From Stackebrandtia albiflava (GTDB lineage: Bacteria; Actinomycetota; Actinomycetes; Mycobacteriales; Micromonosporaceae): a DNA stretch of 64,000 bases. Under the pieces are notes generated by a model, which saw nothing but the letters and a program-made list of their open reading frames with translations, was not told the origin of the DNA and searched no databases. Both the position numbers and the translations under genes were made by a program. Shown piece after piece: positions 923 through 55,104 of this stretch; within the stretch, counting starts at the first letter, position 1, and every line of letters starts with the position of its first letter. The stretch spans positions 1,287,142-1,351,141 of the forward strand of contig NZ_VLLL01000005.1 of assembly GCF_007994225.1 (NCBI RefSeq), written 5' to 3'.

Positions 923-1654
923 ATGACAAGACTGAACCAGCTGATCGCCGTCGAGAAGACCGTCAAGGGCAAGGCGCAGCAGAAGATCGCCGAGGTCGGC
1001 CGCGACCTGGCCAAGGCCGGCCTGCTGTCGGGCATATCGCGCACCTACCAGCCCAAGGACGAGGACGGGGAGCAACTGCCGCCGGAATCGACGCGGGTGC
1101 AGGTCCGCGCCGACGTCGTTCTCAAGGAGGTCGCCGACGGTCTCACCCGGCTGTTCGACGTGACGGCCTCCAAGGACCTCACCAACTGCACCGCCCGCGC
1201 CGACGTGGTCGTGGACGGCCAGCCCCTGCTGCGGGACGTTCCGGTCACCACACTCCTGTTCCTCGAGAAGCAGTTGGCCGAGATGCAGGCGTTCCTGCGG
1301 CGGCTGCCGGTGCTCGACGCCGCGGAGGTGTGGGGCTACAACGACGCCGCCGACTGCTGGTCGACCGAACCGGTCCGCACCATCCGGACCAGGAAGGTGC
1401 CCCGCAACCACGTGAAGGCCGAGGCCACCGAGCACCACCCGGCCCAGGTCGAGGTCTACCACGAGGACGTCCCGGTCGGATACTGGACGTCGGTCAAGTT
1501 CTCCGGAGCCATGCAGGCCAAGCGGCTCGGTGACCTGCTCGACCGCGTCGACACACTGCAGCACGCCGTGAAGTTCGCGCGCGAGGAGGCAAACGCCACC
1601 GAGGTCGTGGACAGCCGCATCGGCGACAAGGTTTTCGGTTACCTGTTCCGGTAA
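923..1654 (+). CDS. Conserved actinobacterial protein of unknown function, linked to tRNA-mimic RNAs
   Basis: This 243-aa soluble protein has no signal peptide or membrane helix. It starts at an ATG with GAGGAGA 6 nt upstream. From memory, close homologues are widespread in Streptomyces and relatives as hypothetical proteins (possibly DUF7873). Recognisable conserved blocks are LSGISRTYQPKDEDGEQLPP (residues about 35-54), a central FLEKQL segment, a basic stretch RTRKVPRNHVKAEATEHHPA and VEVYHEDVPVGYWTSVKFSG. The C-terminus ends in GDKVFGYLFR. I see no known catalytic motif. The gene ends 8 nt before a perfect hairpin and 35 nt before the first of two tRNA-mimic RNAs, with no promoter visible between. 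I infer that it binds, protects or processes these RNAs; nothing in the sequence proves it. It is too short to be a Ro60/TROVE protein. Confidence 0.8.
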   Translation: MTRLNQLIAVEKTVKGKAQQKIAEVGRDLAKAGLLSGISRTYQPKDEDGEQLPPESTRVQVRADVVLKEVADGLTRLFDVTASKDLTNCTARADVVVDGQPLLRDVPVTTLLFLEKQLAEMQAFLRRLPVLDAAEVWGYNDAADCWSTEPVRTIRTRKVPRNHVKAEATEHHPAQVEVYHEDVPVGYWTSVKFSGAMQAKRLGDLLDRVDTLQHAVKFAREEANATEVVDSRIGDKVFGYLFR

Positions 1655-1662
1655 CCTGGAGA

Positions 1663-1682
1663 CTTCCCCCGAGCGGGGGAAG
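1663..1682 (+). other. Perfect 8-bp hairpin between the orphan gene and the first tRNA-mimic RNA
   Basis: CTTCCCCC and GGGGGAAG flank the tetraloop GAGC. There is no T-run after it. It could attenuate or terminate the mRNA, mark a processing site that frees the downstream RNA, or be the 5' stem of that RNA. Confidence 0.6.
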
Positions 1683-1689
1683 AAGTGCA

Positions 1690-1815
1690 GGAGCACAAGC
1701 TGAAACTGAAGTCGAAACTGATTCGCGGTCAAGACGCGGGTTCGAATCCCGTCACCGGTACGTGCCGGTGTAGCCCAATGGTGAGGCAGCCGCGTGAGAC
1801 TCAGACTATCGCTCC
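1690..1815 (+). ncRNA. Y-RNA-like tRNA mimic 1 (circularly permuted tRNA fold)
   Basis: The tRNA parts occur in permuted order. Order of elements: anticodon-stem 3' strand CGCGG (1724-1728), variable region, T arm GCGGG-TTCGAAT-CCCGT (1736-1752), acceptor 3' strand CACCGGT (1753-1759), a 4-nt loop ACGT, acceptor 5' strand GCCGGTG (1764-1770), TA (positions 8-9), D arm GCCC-AATGGTGA-GGC (1773-1787), then CCGCG (1790-1794), which pairs with 1724-1728. The acceptor stem is therefore closed and the RNA ends leave through the anticodon arm. That arm is extended by CTGAaGTC (1706-1713, one bulged A) with GACTCAG (1798-1804), and by GGAGC (1690-1694) with GCTCC (1811-1815). This is the layout of the tRNA-like module of bacterial YrlA RNAs. 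Exact ends are inferred from pairing. A split, permuted tRNA gene is the alternative. Confidence 0.7.
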
Positions 1816-1839
1816 AGACTCAGCATTCGCCATCACGCA

Positions 1840-1967
1840 CCGGCCGACGACGGACGGACGACGGGACTTGAGGTTGCAGGTTCGACTCCTGCCCGCCGCG
1901 CCACATGCGGCGGTAGCTTCAATGGGAGAGCGCAAGGCTTGAAACGGATCCGTCCGCGACGGGCCGG
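1840..1967 (+). ncRNA. Y-RNA-like tRNA mimic 2 (circularly permuted tRNA fold)
   Basis: Same permuted layout as its neighbour, but closer to a true tRNA. CTTG (1867-1870), variable loop AGGTT, T arm GCAGG-TTCGACT-CCTGC (1876-1892), acceptor strand CCGCCGC (1893-1899), G plus CCA (1900-1903), linker CAT, acceptor strand GCGGCGG (1907-1913; perfect 7 bp), TA, D arm GCTT-CAATGGGA-GAGC (1916-1931; 4 bp with one G-U), then CAAG (1933-1936) pairing with CTTG. The outer stem has CGGACGGA (1851-1858) with TCCGTCCG (1949-1956) and CCGGCC (1840-1845) with GGCCGG (1962-1967), separated by a small imperfect helix. The total of about 128 nt matches module 1 and is in the usual Y RNA size range. A hairpin terminator follows 25 nt downstream. 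Confidence 0.72.
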
Positions 1968-1992: not shown

Positions 1993-2024
1993 GGGGCTCG
2001 GGGGAAGGCAATCCTCCGAGCCTC
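1993..2024 (+). terminator. Predicted hairpin terminator of the tRNA-mimic unit
   Basis: A 13-bp stem runs from 1993-2005 to 2012-2024 with two G-U pairs and a 6-nt loop. No T-tract follows, as is common in high-GC actinobacteria. It marks a plausible 3' end for the transcript that starts near 903. Confidence 0.55.
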
Positions 2025-3273: not shown

Positions 3274-4011
3274 TCAGGCTGCGGGCATCCGGCCGGAACA
3301 CAGCACGTGGACGTCCCGGTACCCCAGTCTCCGGTACAACCGGTGCGTGGCCTCCTCACCGGCGTAGGACCCCAACGCCACCATGGGATGCCCCCGTTCC
3401 AGCAACCGCCGGGTGACCCACGAGGTCAATGCCGACGCCAGGCCACGCCGCCTCGCGTCGGGATGCACCGCCACCGAACCCAGCATGGGGCCGATGCCCT
3501 GACCGGTGTTGGCGTTCCCACAGGCGACGATCCGACCCGAGGCGTCCCGCGCCCCGAACCACTCCATACCCGGGCGTTCCCCGTCCGGCCGGCTGGAGGC
3601 CGTCGGGAACGCCACCTCCAGTAGCGCGTCCACCTCCGCATGGTCCACCGGATCGATCCACTCGCACGCGGCCTCGGCCGGTGTCTCCGGTGGCGCCGAA
3701 CGGGTGTAGAACCAGTGCCACGCGCCCTCCACGGCGGGCCTACCCGGTTCGGGCAGTTCCTCCAGCACCGGGCGCGGGATCGTGAACCGCTGCACCGGTA
3801 CCTCGGCGGCGACCCGCGCGAACAGCCCCGCGACCGCCCGGGGCTCACCGTCTCCCATGAGGACGGTCCGGTCGTGGTGGCCGCGATACCACACCACCGC
3901 GCCCTCCTCGGCGAAGCCGACCGAGTCCTCGGAGGCGAAGCAGCGGACCAACGGGAGGTCGGCGGCGGCGAGCAGCGCGCCACGCCCGCTCAACCGGGTG
4001 GGAAGGCTCAT
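3274..4011 (-). CDS. GNAT-family N-acetyltransferase
   Basis: A 245-aa cytoplasmic protein. The C-terminal half carries the acetyl-CoA-binding signature GSVAVHPDARRRGLASALT followed by an amphipathic helix ending LLERG, then SYAGEEATHRLYRRLGYRD, the usual beta-bulge and C-terminal strand of GNAT/FR47-like enzymes. The N-terminal 120 residues are divergent, so this is a two-part GNAT with an unknown substrate. I chose the ATG at 4011 because it has a GGAG-like site just upstream; an upstream ATG at 4104 would add 31 Arg/Gly-rich residues that look non-coding. No operon partner is evident. Confidence 0.8.
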   Translation of the reverse strand: MSLPTRLSGRGALLAAADLPLVRCFASEDSVGFAEEGAVVWYRGHHDRTVLMGDGEPRAVAGLFARVAAEVPVQRFTIPRPVLEELPEPGRPAVEGAWHWFYTRSAPPETPAEAACEWIDPVDHAEVDALLEVAFPTASSRPDGERPGMEWFGARDASGRIVACGNANTGQGIGPMLGSVAVHPDARRRGLASALTSWVTRRLLERGHPMVALGSYAGEEATHRLYRRLGYRDVHVLCSGRMPAA

Positions 4012-4921: not shown

Positions 4922-5523
4922 TCGCCAGCCTCACCGGCACGATCACCTCGGTGACCGGCGACAGCACGGTCATGACGGTCGGAGGGGTCGGCTACCTCCT
5001 GCGGGCCACACCGGGGACACTCGCCAACCTGCGGGTGGGAGCCGAGACGACCCTGCACACCACCCTGATCGTCCGTGAGGAGTCCCTGACCCTGTACGGA
5101 TTCGCCACCGTCGCCGAACGCGACCTGTTCGAACTGCTGCAGACCGCGAGCGGCGTCGGGCCCCGGCTGGCGCAGGCGGCGTTGGCCGTGCACAGCCCCG
5201 CCGCCGTCCGGCACGCCATCGCCTCCGCCGACACCGCGACACTGACCCGCATACCCGGTGTCGGGAAGAAGGGCGCCGACCGTCTCGTGCTGGAACTCAA
5301 GGACAAGATCGGGGCGGCCCCCGCCACCGACGAACCGTCGGGCGGCGGTGACCGGCCGCCCGCGTGGCGTGAGCAGGTCTCCCAGGGCCTCCAGGCGTTG
5401 GGCTGGTCCGCCAAGGACGCCGCCACGGCCGTCACCAAGCTCGACGCCGGTTCCGAGGTCGACGCCACCGACGTGCCGGGCCTGCTCAAACAGGCGATCC
5501 GGCTGCTGGGGCGGACCCGATGA
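4918..5523 (+). CDS. ruvA: Holliday junction DNA helicase subunit RuvA
   Basis: A 201-aa junction-binding subunit that loads RuvB. N-terminal OB fold ([11 protein letters not shown]), two helix-hairpin-helix motifs ([14 protein letters not shown] and [20 protein letters not shown]), a Gly/Pro-rich linker near residue 145 and the C-terminal RuvB-binding domain. The GTG start overlaps the ruvC stop and GGGAG lies upstream. The last codon overlaps the ruvB ATG (ATGA). Confidence 0.97.
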
Positions 5524-41685: not shown

Positions 41686-41739
41686 TCCGTCACCATCCGT
41701 CACGGGTATGACGATTCCGGTGGAGGTGGGTGCTGTCGG

Positions 41740-41814
41740 TGCCCTGGGTGGGATTCGAACCCACACTGTATGGTGTTTGAGACCATTGTCTACTGCCAGT
41801 TGGACTACCAGGGC
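41740..41814 (-). tRNA. tRNA with CAA anticodon (Leu), short variable loop
   Basis: Complete 75-nt cloverleaf: acceptor GCCCTGG/CCAGGGC, D stem GTC/GAC with a 12-nt loop containing GG, anticodon stem ATGGT/ACCAT with loop CTCAAAC (anticodon CAA, reads UUG), variable loop ACAGT, T arm GTGGG-TTCGAAT-CCCAC and discriminator A. CCA is not encoded. Leucine tRNAs normally have a long variable arm; this one has five bases. The A73 discriminator fits leucine. Confidence 0.93.
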
Positions 41815-54162: not shown

Positions 54163-55104
54163 ATGCGGGAACCCATAGACACGATGGCCCTGTTGCGGGA
54201 GCTGGAACCGGTGGTGGAGGTGAACCTCAACCGGCACCTGGCGACCGCCAAGGAGTGGTTCCCCCACGAGTTCGTCCCCTGGAGCCTCGGCCGTGACTTC
54301 GACGGTCCGCTGGAGGGCGTCGAGTGGAGCCCCGACCAGTCGGCGATCCCGGACGTCGCGAGGACGTCCCTCATCGTCAACCTCCTCACCGAGGACAACC
54401 TCCCCAGCTACCACCACGAGATCGCGACGTTGTTCGGCAGGGACGGCGCGTGGGGCACCTGGGTGCACCGCTGGACCGCCGAGGAGGGCCGGCACGGGAT
54501 CGCGATCCGCGACTACCTGCTGACCACCCGCGCCGTGGACCCGGTGGCGTTGGAACGGGCGCGCATGGTGCACATGTCCACCGGATACGACAGCAGCAAC
54601 GACGGCGTCATCGAGTCGCTCGCGTACGTGTCGTTCCAGGAGCTGGCGACCCGGGTGTCGCATCGCAACACCGGCCGGATCAGCGGTGATCCGGTGTGCG
54701 ACCAGCTGCTGGCGAAGGTCGCCGCCGACGAGAACCTGCACATGCTGTTCTACCGCAACCTGCTCGCGGCCGCCTTCGAGCTGGCACCGGATGTCACGAT
54801 GCGCGCGATCTGCCGCGTCGCCACGACCTTCCAGATGCCCGGCAACGGCATCGAGAACTTCAACCGCAAGTCGGTGCAGATCGCGATGGCGGGGATCTAC
54901 GACTTGCGCATCCACCACGACGAGGTGCTGATACCGGTGCTTCGACAGGTGAAGGCGATGGAACGCACCGGACTGTCGGGCGACGGTGAGGCGGCCCGCG
55001 AGGAGCTGGCGGTGTTCCTCGACGACCTCGACCGCAAGGCGGCCCGGTTCGTCGAACGTCGTGACGCCGCCCGCGACAAGCTCACCGCGAGGGCCGCCGC
55101 CTGA
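54163..55104 (+). CDS. Acyl-ACP desaturase (ferritin-like di-iron)
   Basis: A 313-aa soluble desaturase of the DesA/plant stearoyl-ACP type. Di-iron ligands are in TAEEGRHGIAIRDYL and AADENLHMLFYRNL, with upstream Glu in LLTEDNLPSYHHE. It inserts double bonds into acyl-ACP using ferredoxin and oxygen, adjusting membrane fluidity. The ATG at 54163 has GGAGG about 6 nt upstream. The double palindrome at 54058 implies control by lipid supply. It follows the acyltransferase gene. Confidence 0.93.
   Translation: MREPIDTMALLRELEPVVEVNLNRHLATAKEWFPHEFVPWSLGRDFDGPLEGVEWSPDQSAIPDVARTSLIVNLLTEDNLPSYHHEIATLFGRDGAWGTWVHRWTAEEGRHGIAIRDYLLTTRAVDPVALERARMVHMSTGYDSSNDGVIESLAYVSFQELATRVSHRNTGRISGDPVCDQLLAKVAADENLHMLFYRNLLAAAFELAPDVTMRAICRVATTFQMPGNGIENFNRKSVQIAMAGIYDLRIHHDEVLIPVLRQVKAMERTGLSGDGEAAREELAVFLDDLDRKAARFVERRDAARDKLTARAAA

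Follow-up and report, generated by a model that had tools for sequence, protein, structure and literature searches.

Two tRNA-like folds lie directly behind a gene of DUF7873, a protein family of unknown function, in Stackebrandtia albiflava. The question that they raise is whether they belong among the Y RNAs and, if so, which protein they would serve, Y RNAs being usually read as partners of Ro60. A sequence-only reading of the stretch of DNA analysed here, 64,000 nucleotides in all and called the window below, had described the locus as two tandem, diverged copies of a circularly permuted tRNA mimic with the architecture of the YrlA RNAs, their pairing kept by selection.

Layout and covariation of the tandem units

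The RNA region consists of two Y-RNA-like units in tandem, each of them a stem tipped by a circularly permuted tRNA mimic (Table 1). A letter-by-letter check recovered in both units the order that had been read there, T arm, acceptor, TA and D arm, and all seven pairs in each of the two acceptor stems, which are closed by loops as proposed: CACCGGT/GCCGGTG with one G-U pair and the loop ACGT in unit 1, and CCGCCGC/GCGGCGG in unit 2, whose loop, GCCACAT, contains CCA after the discriminator. The T loops TTCGAAT (unit 1) and TTCGACT (unit 2) and the D arms are present, and both units leave through an anticodon-like helix, again as described. The region starts with a hairpin 8 nt past the stop codon of the DUF7873 gene. 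A second, shorter hairpin follows; in the homologous loci presented in the following section, a hairpin stands immediately before the unit 1 stem in 53 of the 93 two-unit loci with a recognised stem start. At the other end, 94 of 104 two-unit loci have a perfect hairpin of at least 8 bp at 70-170 nt past the acceptor strand of unit 2, versus 21 with shuffled sequences.

Table 1. Positions in the window of the DUF7873 gene and of the elements of the RNA region
Feature	Position	Strand	Basis
DUF7873 protein gene, 243 aa, candidate protein partner	923..1654	+	Pfam PF25283, E=2.7e-111, 371.5 bits
8-bp hairpin CTTCCCCC-GAGC-GGGGGAAG, start of RNA region	1663..1682	+	read from sequence
Second short hairpin GTGC-AGGA-GCAC	1685..1696	+	sequence
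Unit 1: permuted tRNA-like module on a Y-like stem whose outermost pairs are GCTGA/TCAGC	1699..1824	+	fold, model scores, covariation, end positions
Unit 1 T arm GCGGG-TTCGAAT-CCCGT	1736..1752	+	letters, covariation
Unit 1 permuted acceptor stem, strands 1753-1759 and 1764-1770, closing loop 1760-1763	1753..1770	+	letters; two-sided changes in 7/7 pairs
TA dinucleotides	unit 1 1771-1772; unit 2 1914-1915	+	letters
Unit 1 D arm	1773..1787	+	letters, covariation
Anticodon-like helices	unit 1 1724-1728/1790-1794; unit 2 1867-1870/1933-1936	+	letters
Stem motif CTATCGCTCCA (YTNTYGCTCYA), 3' strand of unit 1 stem, candidate protein-binding site	1806..1816	+	letters, conservation
Unit 2: outer stem 1840-1845/1962-1967 and 1851-1858/1949-1956, permuted tRNA-like module	1840..1967	+	fold, model scores, covariation
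Unit 2 T arm GCAGG-TTCGACT-CCTGC	1876..1892	+	letters, covariation
Unit 2 permuted acceptor stem, 1893-1899 with 1907-1913	1893..1913	+	letters, covariation
Unit 2 D arm	1916..1931	+	letters, covariation
11-bp hairpin (one G-U), without U tract, probable terminator and 3' end	1995..2022	+	letters

The units were searched for with a descriptor that requires a T arm with a TTCRA loop, a permuted 7-bp acceptor with at least six pairs, T[AG] and a D arm. It has two matches in 1655-2055 and none in the rest of the 64-kb window on either strand; among 5000 dinucleotide-preserving shuffles of the region, two gave at least one match and none gave two. The minimum-energy folds of both units contain the T arm and the acceptor helix. 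Their energies do not differ significantly from those of shuffled sequences, with z -0.80 for unit 1 (41 of 200 shuffles equal or better) and z -1.73 for unit 2 (13 of 200).

Covariation among homologues is the decisive evidence for a structured RNA at this locus. Paired cells amount to 99.6% in unit 1 (64 sequences, 15 pairs, two-sided changes in 13 of them) and to 91.0% in unit 2 (50 sequences, 30 pairs, two-sided changes in 29), figures that are biased upward for the T, acceptor and D helices because the descriptor choosing the aligned units demands their pairing. The covariation score is 0.553 in unit 1, versus 0.144 after shuffling and 0.078-0.123 when the partners are slid, and 0.647 in unit 2, versus 0.207 and 0.112-0.143, respectively; none of 500 shuffles matched the observed score in either unit. 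Outside the descriptor, the anticodon-like helix of unit 2 (75.0% paired, two-sided changes in 5 of 5 pairs) and its outer helix (85.4% paired, 9 of 9) covary as well. When partners were swapped between loci, the anticodon-like zone was supported in both units, a helix of at least 5 pairs forming in 89% versus 45% and in 78% versus 37%. The outer zone gave a signal in unit 2 (7.85 versus 6.38) and none in unit 1 (6.17 versus 6.10), where the basal stem is read from the fold of a single sequence. A MAFFT alignment of the entire downstream region was too gapped for use.

Thus, selection on the pairing of two diverged tandem copies is borne out by their homologues, and the absence of compensatory changes, named beforehand as the outcome that would speak against the proposal, is excluded in both units. 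As judged from sequence comparison, this is a real, strongly conserved structured RNA that combines a Y-RNA-like architecture with a twin layout and a new protein neighbour.

Linkage to the DUF7873 gene in bacteria and phages

In protein searches, relatives of DUF7873 numbered at least 332 among viral contigs and at least 536 among genome contigs; 80 of either kind were kept. Phage records with DUF7873 number 73, or 88 with a Rhizobium-phage query, which also reaches Prevotella Lak phages, and plasmid records number 4. A DNA search of 41 related genomes, that of S. albiflava included, gave matches in 17, and at 10 of the 17 non-self loci a DUF7873 gene, 58.7-72.3% identical, lies upstream of the match. 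The gene is not universal: it is present in 13 of these 41 genomes, and in 6 of 296 genomes sampled across the phylum, five of them in one genus, which we count against our preferred reading. Among 14 control genomes, Deinobacterium chartae was the sole carrier of DUF7873 and also the sole carrier of TROVE; the family therefore extends to bacteria outside actinobacteria.

To define the linkage, we used the 188 of 203 sequences with a DUF7873 match, own-locus and other duplicates included. A permuted unit occurs within 800 nt downstream of DUF7873 in 175 of these 188 loci, and two units in 109. As controls from the same loci, 33 matches were obtained in the 2.1-Mb remainder, both strands counted, and one on the opposite strand of the downstream 800 nt. 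With identical downstream starts dropped, a wider T-loop pattern and 700 nt searched, 177 loci are left; two units occur in 109 of them, a single one in 56, three in 2 and no unit in 10.

A covariance model, R1, was built from 50 unit 2 sequences, to which at least 4 of the 13 DUF7873-bearing relatives contributed. It was run on 12 of the 13 loci negative with the descriptor, L099, which ends at the gene, being left out, and found units in 9. They lie downstream of the gene, with 51.7-118.1 bits, in L048, L189, L066, L083, L105 and L098, upstream of it in L111 (72.2 bits), on the opposite strand in L101 (109.7 bits) and, in L038, past a HEARO RNA (38.0 and 23.4 bits). R1 gave nothing in L075 and L076 and just 18.6 bits, on the other strand, in L096, so that no convincing unit was found in these three. 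Among the 41 genomes, R1 matches of at least 59 bits, a cut picked after the scores were seen, occur in exactly the 13 DUF7873 genomes and all of them lie beside that gene; the best match away from it (52.7 bits) is about 0.8 kb from a TROVE match in genome G024. Apart from DUF7873 and the frames overlapping it, a comparison of neighbours in 19 loci (frames of at least 110 aa, up to 4 kb on each side, the first 6000 bases of the window) found none common to more than three other loci. By eye, an ordinary-order tRNA-like sequence was noticed in L009 and L207 between a permuted unit and a hairpin.

The close succession of gene and RNA would also suit a structured 3' UTR that tunes the stability or translation of the DUF7873 mRNA, its tRNA mimicry serving feedback by a tRNA-handling enzyme. 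The 8 nt behind the stop codon indeed leave no space for a separate intergenic promoter, and the region closes with a hairpin. However, with the upstream units of L111, the opposite-strand units of L101 and the weak units that L038 carries past a HEARO RNA, cis contact is not preserved everywhere, and two modular units appear more than a cis element requires. We regard this alternative as improbable.

The stem motif YTNTYGCTCYA is present in 125 of the 188 downstream regions, versus 6 occurrences in 1.13 Mb of background on one strand. With a slightly wider pattern, it sits between the units in 88 of 109 two-unit loci, 42-57 nt past the first base of the acceptor 5' strand of unit 1, and is absent in 20; in the 56 single-unit loci it lies upstream of the sole unit in 34, downstream in 2 and is absent in 20. 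In some of these single-unit examples, a plain hairpin seems to stand in for the unit 1 tRNA module, and a few retain such a module just below the cut. With the motif kept and the unit 1 module often missing, the stem is the less variable part, and the tRNA module would act as an exchangeable effector.

One or two units were also found 3' of DUF7873 in Arthrobacter phage Mimi, Gordonia phages Phendrix and Keelan, Rhodococcus phage NiceHouse, Pseudanabaena phage Pam2, Rhizobium phages TM21B and TM16, and Klebsiella phages Centimanus and KpLz-2_45; the DUF7873 proteins of these phage groups are 30-53% identical where aligned. A single descriptor match was obtained in each of Vibrio phages D472 and K481, where R1 scores weakly (30.0 and 25.1 bits), and the Microcoleus phage of locus L038 has weak R1 matches at 5065 (23.4 bits) and 5311 (38.0 bits), all of these scores being no higher than those of some ordinary tRNA arrays (up to 44.8 bits). 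In L038, a HEARO RNA (3450-3659, 129.1 bits) and a reading frame separate DUF7873 from the weak units, as would result from insertion of a HEARO element into the cassette. In Lak-A1, a Lak megaphage, no unit was convincing. Over the unit stretch, the annotation of most of these phages leaves several hundred nucleotides empty. In Gordonia phage Keelan and Vibrio phages D472 and K481, however, small coding genes have been annotated across or alongside the units, which counts against our reading, and ‘tRNA-Stop’ is annotated at the units of Klebsiella phage Centimanus.

Sequence comparison shows this architecture, its covariation and its linkage to DUF7873 across actinobacteria and unrelated phages, and this recurrence of gene and RNA as a pair points to an uncharacterised RNA-protein machine. 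ARAGORN, run on 57 of the 80 kept viral-contig loci, detected tRNA or tmRNA genes in 32 of them and at least five tRNA genes in 14; this company of DUF7873 was kept out of the proof because it comes without a control rate. DUF7873 stands amid phage tRNA genes in viral-contig loci such as L053, L058, L059, L063, L077, L083, L088, L110 and L113. In Rhizobium phage MN988560.1 (W06, 113363-114106), a TROVE match and the DUF7873 gene with its unit are about 5 kb apart.

tRNA, tmRNA and YrlA readings of the units

In the two-piece (circularly permuted) tmRNA, the acceptor 3' strand precedes the 5' strand, the same order as in the units described here. The units could be such a tmRNA, or else belong to a tRNA array, ordinary or decayed, whose register has been misread. 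R1 does reach 40.8 bits (G013) and 44.8 bits (G023) in real tRNA arrays: clusters of weaker R1 matches at G013:C1 8169306-8172790 (L012) and G023:C1 4364907-4366583 (L018) correspond to arrays, since ARAGORN finds 19 and 20 tRNA genes there. Weak beta_tmRNA matches occur in phages (24.1-25.3 versus 84 bits). Moreover, of the seven acceptor pairs, the canonical tRNA-array reading forms 4.23, which is slightly above control, the swapped mean being 3.92 and the highest of 200 swaps 4.17. The permuted reading, however, forms 6.98 and 6.94 (versus 5.02 for swapped unit 1), though the descriptor demanded at least 6, and in the anticodon-like zone, which the descriptor did not select, the permuted order pairs far better than the canonical one (mean 5.79 versus 3.83). 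The only gene that ARAGORN detects in the window is a tRNA-Leu at 41738-41814, with neither tRNA nor tmRNA at the site of the units; the tRNA model scores 18.2 bits versus 29 across the two units, and the tmRNA model 9.1 bits versus 47, both failing. The array and tmRNA readings were thus rejected on ARAGORN, the Rfam scores and the register of acceptor pairing, and we see hardly any chance that either is right.

Permuted tRNA genes, which would mature to functional tRNAs by circularisation or splicing, share with the units the element order, the TTCRA T loops and the CCA past the discriminator, present in 46 of 109 unit 1 copies and 31 of 109 unit 2 copies. Yet the strands on which an anticodon loop would be expected continue as a covarying outer stem in unit 2 and as a conserved stem motif in unit 1, whose module is often missing. 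It is thus very unlikely that the units give rise to tRNAs.

YrlA (RF02553) is the top Rfam family for both units, with 29.0 bits (E 2.8e-4) at 1709-1811 in unit 1 and 36.0 bits (E 2.7e-6) at 1851-1959 in unit 2. R1 scores 42.1 bits at 1709-1820 and 84.1 bits at 1841-1972, the latter with the unit's own sequence in the build set. Both units stay below the 69 bits at which YrlA matches are gathered, and no Rfam family attains its own gathering score in the RNA region. Elsewhere in the window, Rfam ASdes matches at 54484-54551 on the minus strand (73.2 bits, gathering 40), in what may be merely a conserved coding stretch. The covariance search that had been suggested as a check agrees with the sequence-only reading in the choice of family and falls short of it in score, for YrlA as for the tRNA model. 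Of the hallmarks of YrlA, the permuted T/acceptor/D domain and the basal stem are present; the gathering score is missed, and the adjacent gene is DUF7873 and not rsr (TROVE). ‘Y-RNA-like’ holds for the shape of the units, as far as the letters tell, and does not extend to the score or the neighbour.

The units might nevertheless be two ordinary YrlA RNAs acting in trans with Ro60/Rsr, DUF7873 being no partner at all. Besides the choice of family, this is favoured by the single TROVE match of the genome, on contig C9, and by the presence of TROVE in 5 of the 13 DUF7873-bearing relatives. The 25 records searched singly comprise 17 bacterial DUF7873 genomes, 12 of them with TROVE, and 8 phages, of which one has it; the bacterial matches cover only about positions 277-358 of the 442-position profile, so a divergent Ro60 could be missed. 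The low YrlA score of the units is compatible with membership too: each of the 8 TROVE loci examined has a YrlA-like match, all below the gathering score, and as these TROVE-linked YrlAs score only 26-45 bits, a low score does not exclude it. On the other hand, these same loci, with the one on C9 (44.9 bits), already own their YrlA-like RNA, and the stem motif is missing from 12 of 12 TROVE loci of about 3.2 kb. TROVE is not detected in 8 of the 13 DUF7873-bearing relatives or in 7 of the 8 phages, and co-occurrence among the 41 genomes, of which 13 have DUF7873, 8 have TROVE and 5 have both, does not reach significance (Fisher p 0.084). Carriers of DUF7873 without detectable TROVE, and TROVE loci free of the motif, indicate that the pair is separable from Ro60, though often in the same genome. 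We thus consider service to Ro60 in trans unlikely. In L026, two tandem YrlA-like matches (433-538 and 613-682) lie beside a TROVE gene; tandem units thus occur in a Ro60 context too.

A candidate ribonucleoprotein module and known systems

The AlphaFold2 model of DUF7873, computed with 78 sequences, is a confident alpha/beta structure (pLDDT 93.1, pTM 0.68). Foldseek returned no PDB match for it at E <= 0.001, the best being Pur-alpha (E 0.097, prob 0.30, TM 0.13), and one unnamed viral match (E 3.3e-4, TM 0.22); both were rejected as evidence on DUF7873. PDB sequence searches gave no significant relative of solved structure, and four DUF7873 proteins had no family in PHROGs or NCBIfam. In the literature searched, DUF7873 is unnamed and the gene-RNA pair undescribed; the main YrlA papers fell outside this coverage and an earlier description is possible.

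We consider it probable that the DUF7873 gene and the twin Y-RNA-like RNA form a self-contained module, a ribonucleoprotein whose partner protein would be DUF7873 and not Ro60. The transcription, binding and function that we would propose for the pair start with a noncoding RNA of about 330-360 nt directly after the DUF7873 gene, presumably co-transcribed with it because of the 8-nt spacing, and ending at the last hairpin of Table 1. From the linkage, we infer that DUF7873 may bind this RNA; by analogy with the binding of the YrlA stem by Ro60/Rsr, it would contact the conserved stem or stems. The exposed tRNA mimics could recruit, or compete for, tRNA-handling enzymes such as TruB, Dus, nucleases or an exonuclease such as PNPase, so that, in tRNA metabolism, the particle would serve as a tether, gate or decoy. 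As effector, unit 2 would be the more constant of the two; unit 1 often lacks its tRNA module and retains the stem motif. Against this reading, we count the lack of a significant PDB match, the non-significant fold energies, the outer zone of unit 1 without signal, the unit-poor loci (L075, L076, L096 and Lak) and the displaced units of L101 and L111.

More tentatively, and with less than even confidence, we suggest that such modules make up a separate, Ro60-independent class of Y-RNA-like ribonucleoproteins in actinobacteria and unrelated large phages, whose mimics would decoy or tether tRNA-cleaving or tRNA-modifying enzymes in phage-host conflict. PMC7790460 raises, without showing it, the idea of YrlA as a competitive inhibitor of an anticodon nuclease, and PMC7824862 reports RNA repair and TROVE in jumbo phages. 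If a different protein indeed works on the same tRNA-mimic architecture, permutation-based tRNA mimicry would be a portable solution. DUF7873, which counts hundreds of relatives among genome and viral contigs, would gain a testable role, and bacterial Y RNA function could be tested in a two-gene system independent of Ro60.

Several known systems share features with this locus. GOLLD and ROOL are large noncoding RNAs of phages and bacteria. They and HEARO resemble the RNA described here in being noncoding and of phage and bacterial distribution, but none matches the region at the Rfam gathering score, and HEARO stands beside the cassette in L038 only. In the Salmonella operon, whose order is given as rsr-yrlB-yrlA-rtcB-rtcA in PMC9879122, a protein gene is likewise followed by two tandem Y RNAs; there, the protein is Rsr and RtcB/RtcA come after, whereas here it is DUF7873 and no further gene is widely common. 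YrlA itself, in PMC8394870, consists of a stem of the 5' and 3' ends plus a tRNA-like domain akin to the D, T and acceptor arms, and is described with Rsr, PNPase, DusA and TruB. The units differ from this YrlA of Rsr/Ro60 in their link to DUF7873, in their number, two per RNA region, and in a stem motif that TROVE loci lack. They share with it the basal stem and the tRNA-like domain, and, like the TROVE-linked YrlAs examined, they stay below the Rfam gathering score. As in Y RNAs, a constant stem would here be combined with a replaceable tRNA-module effector.
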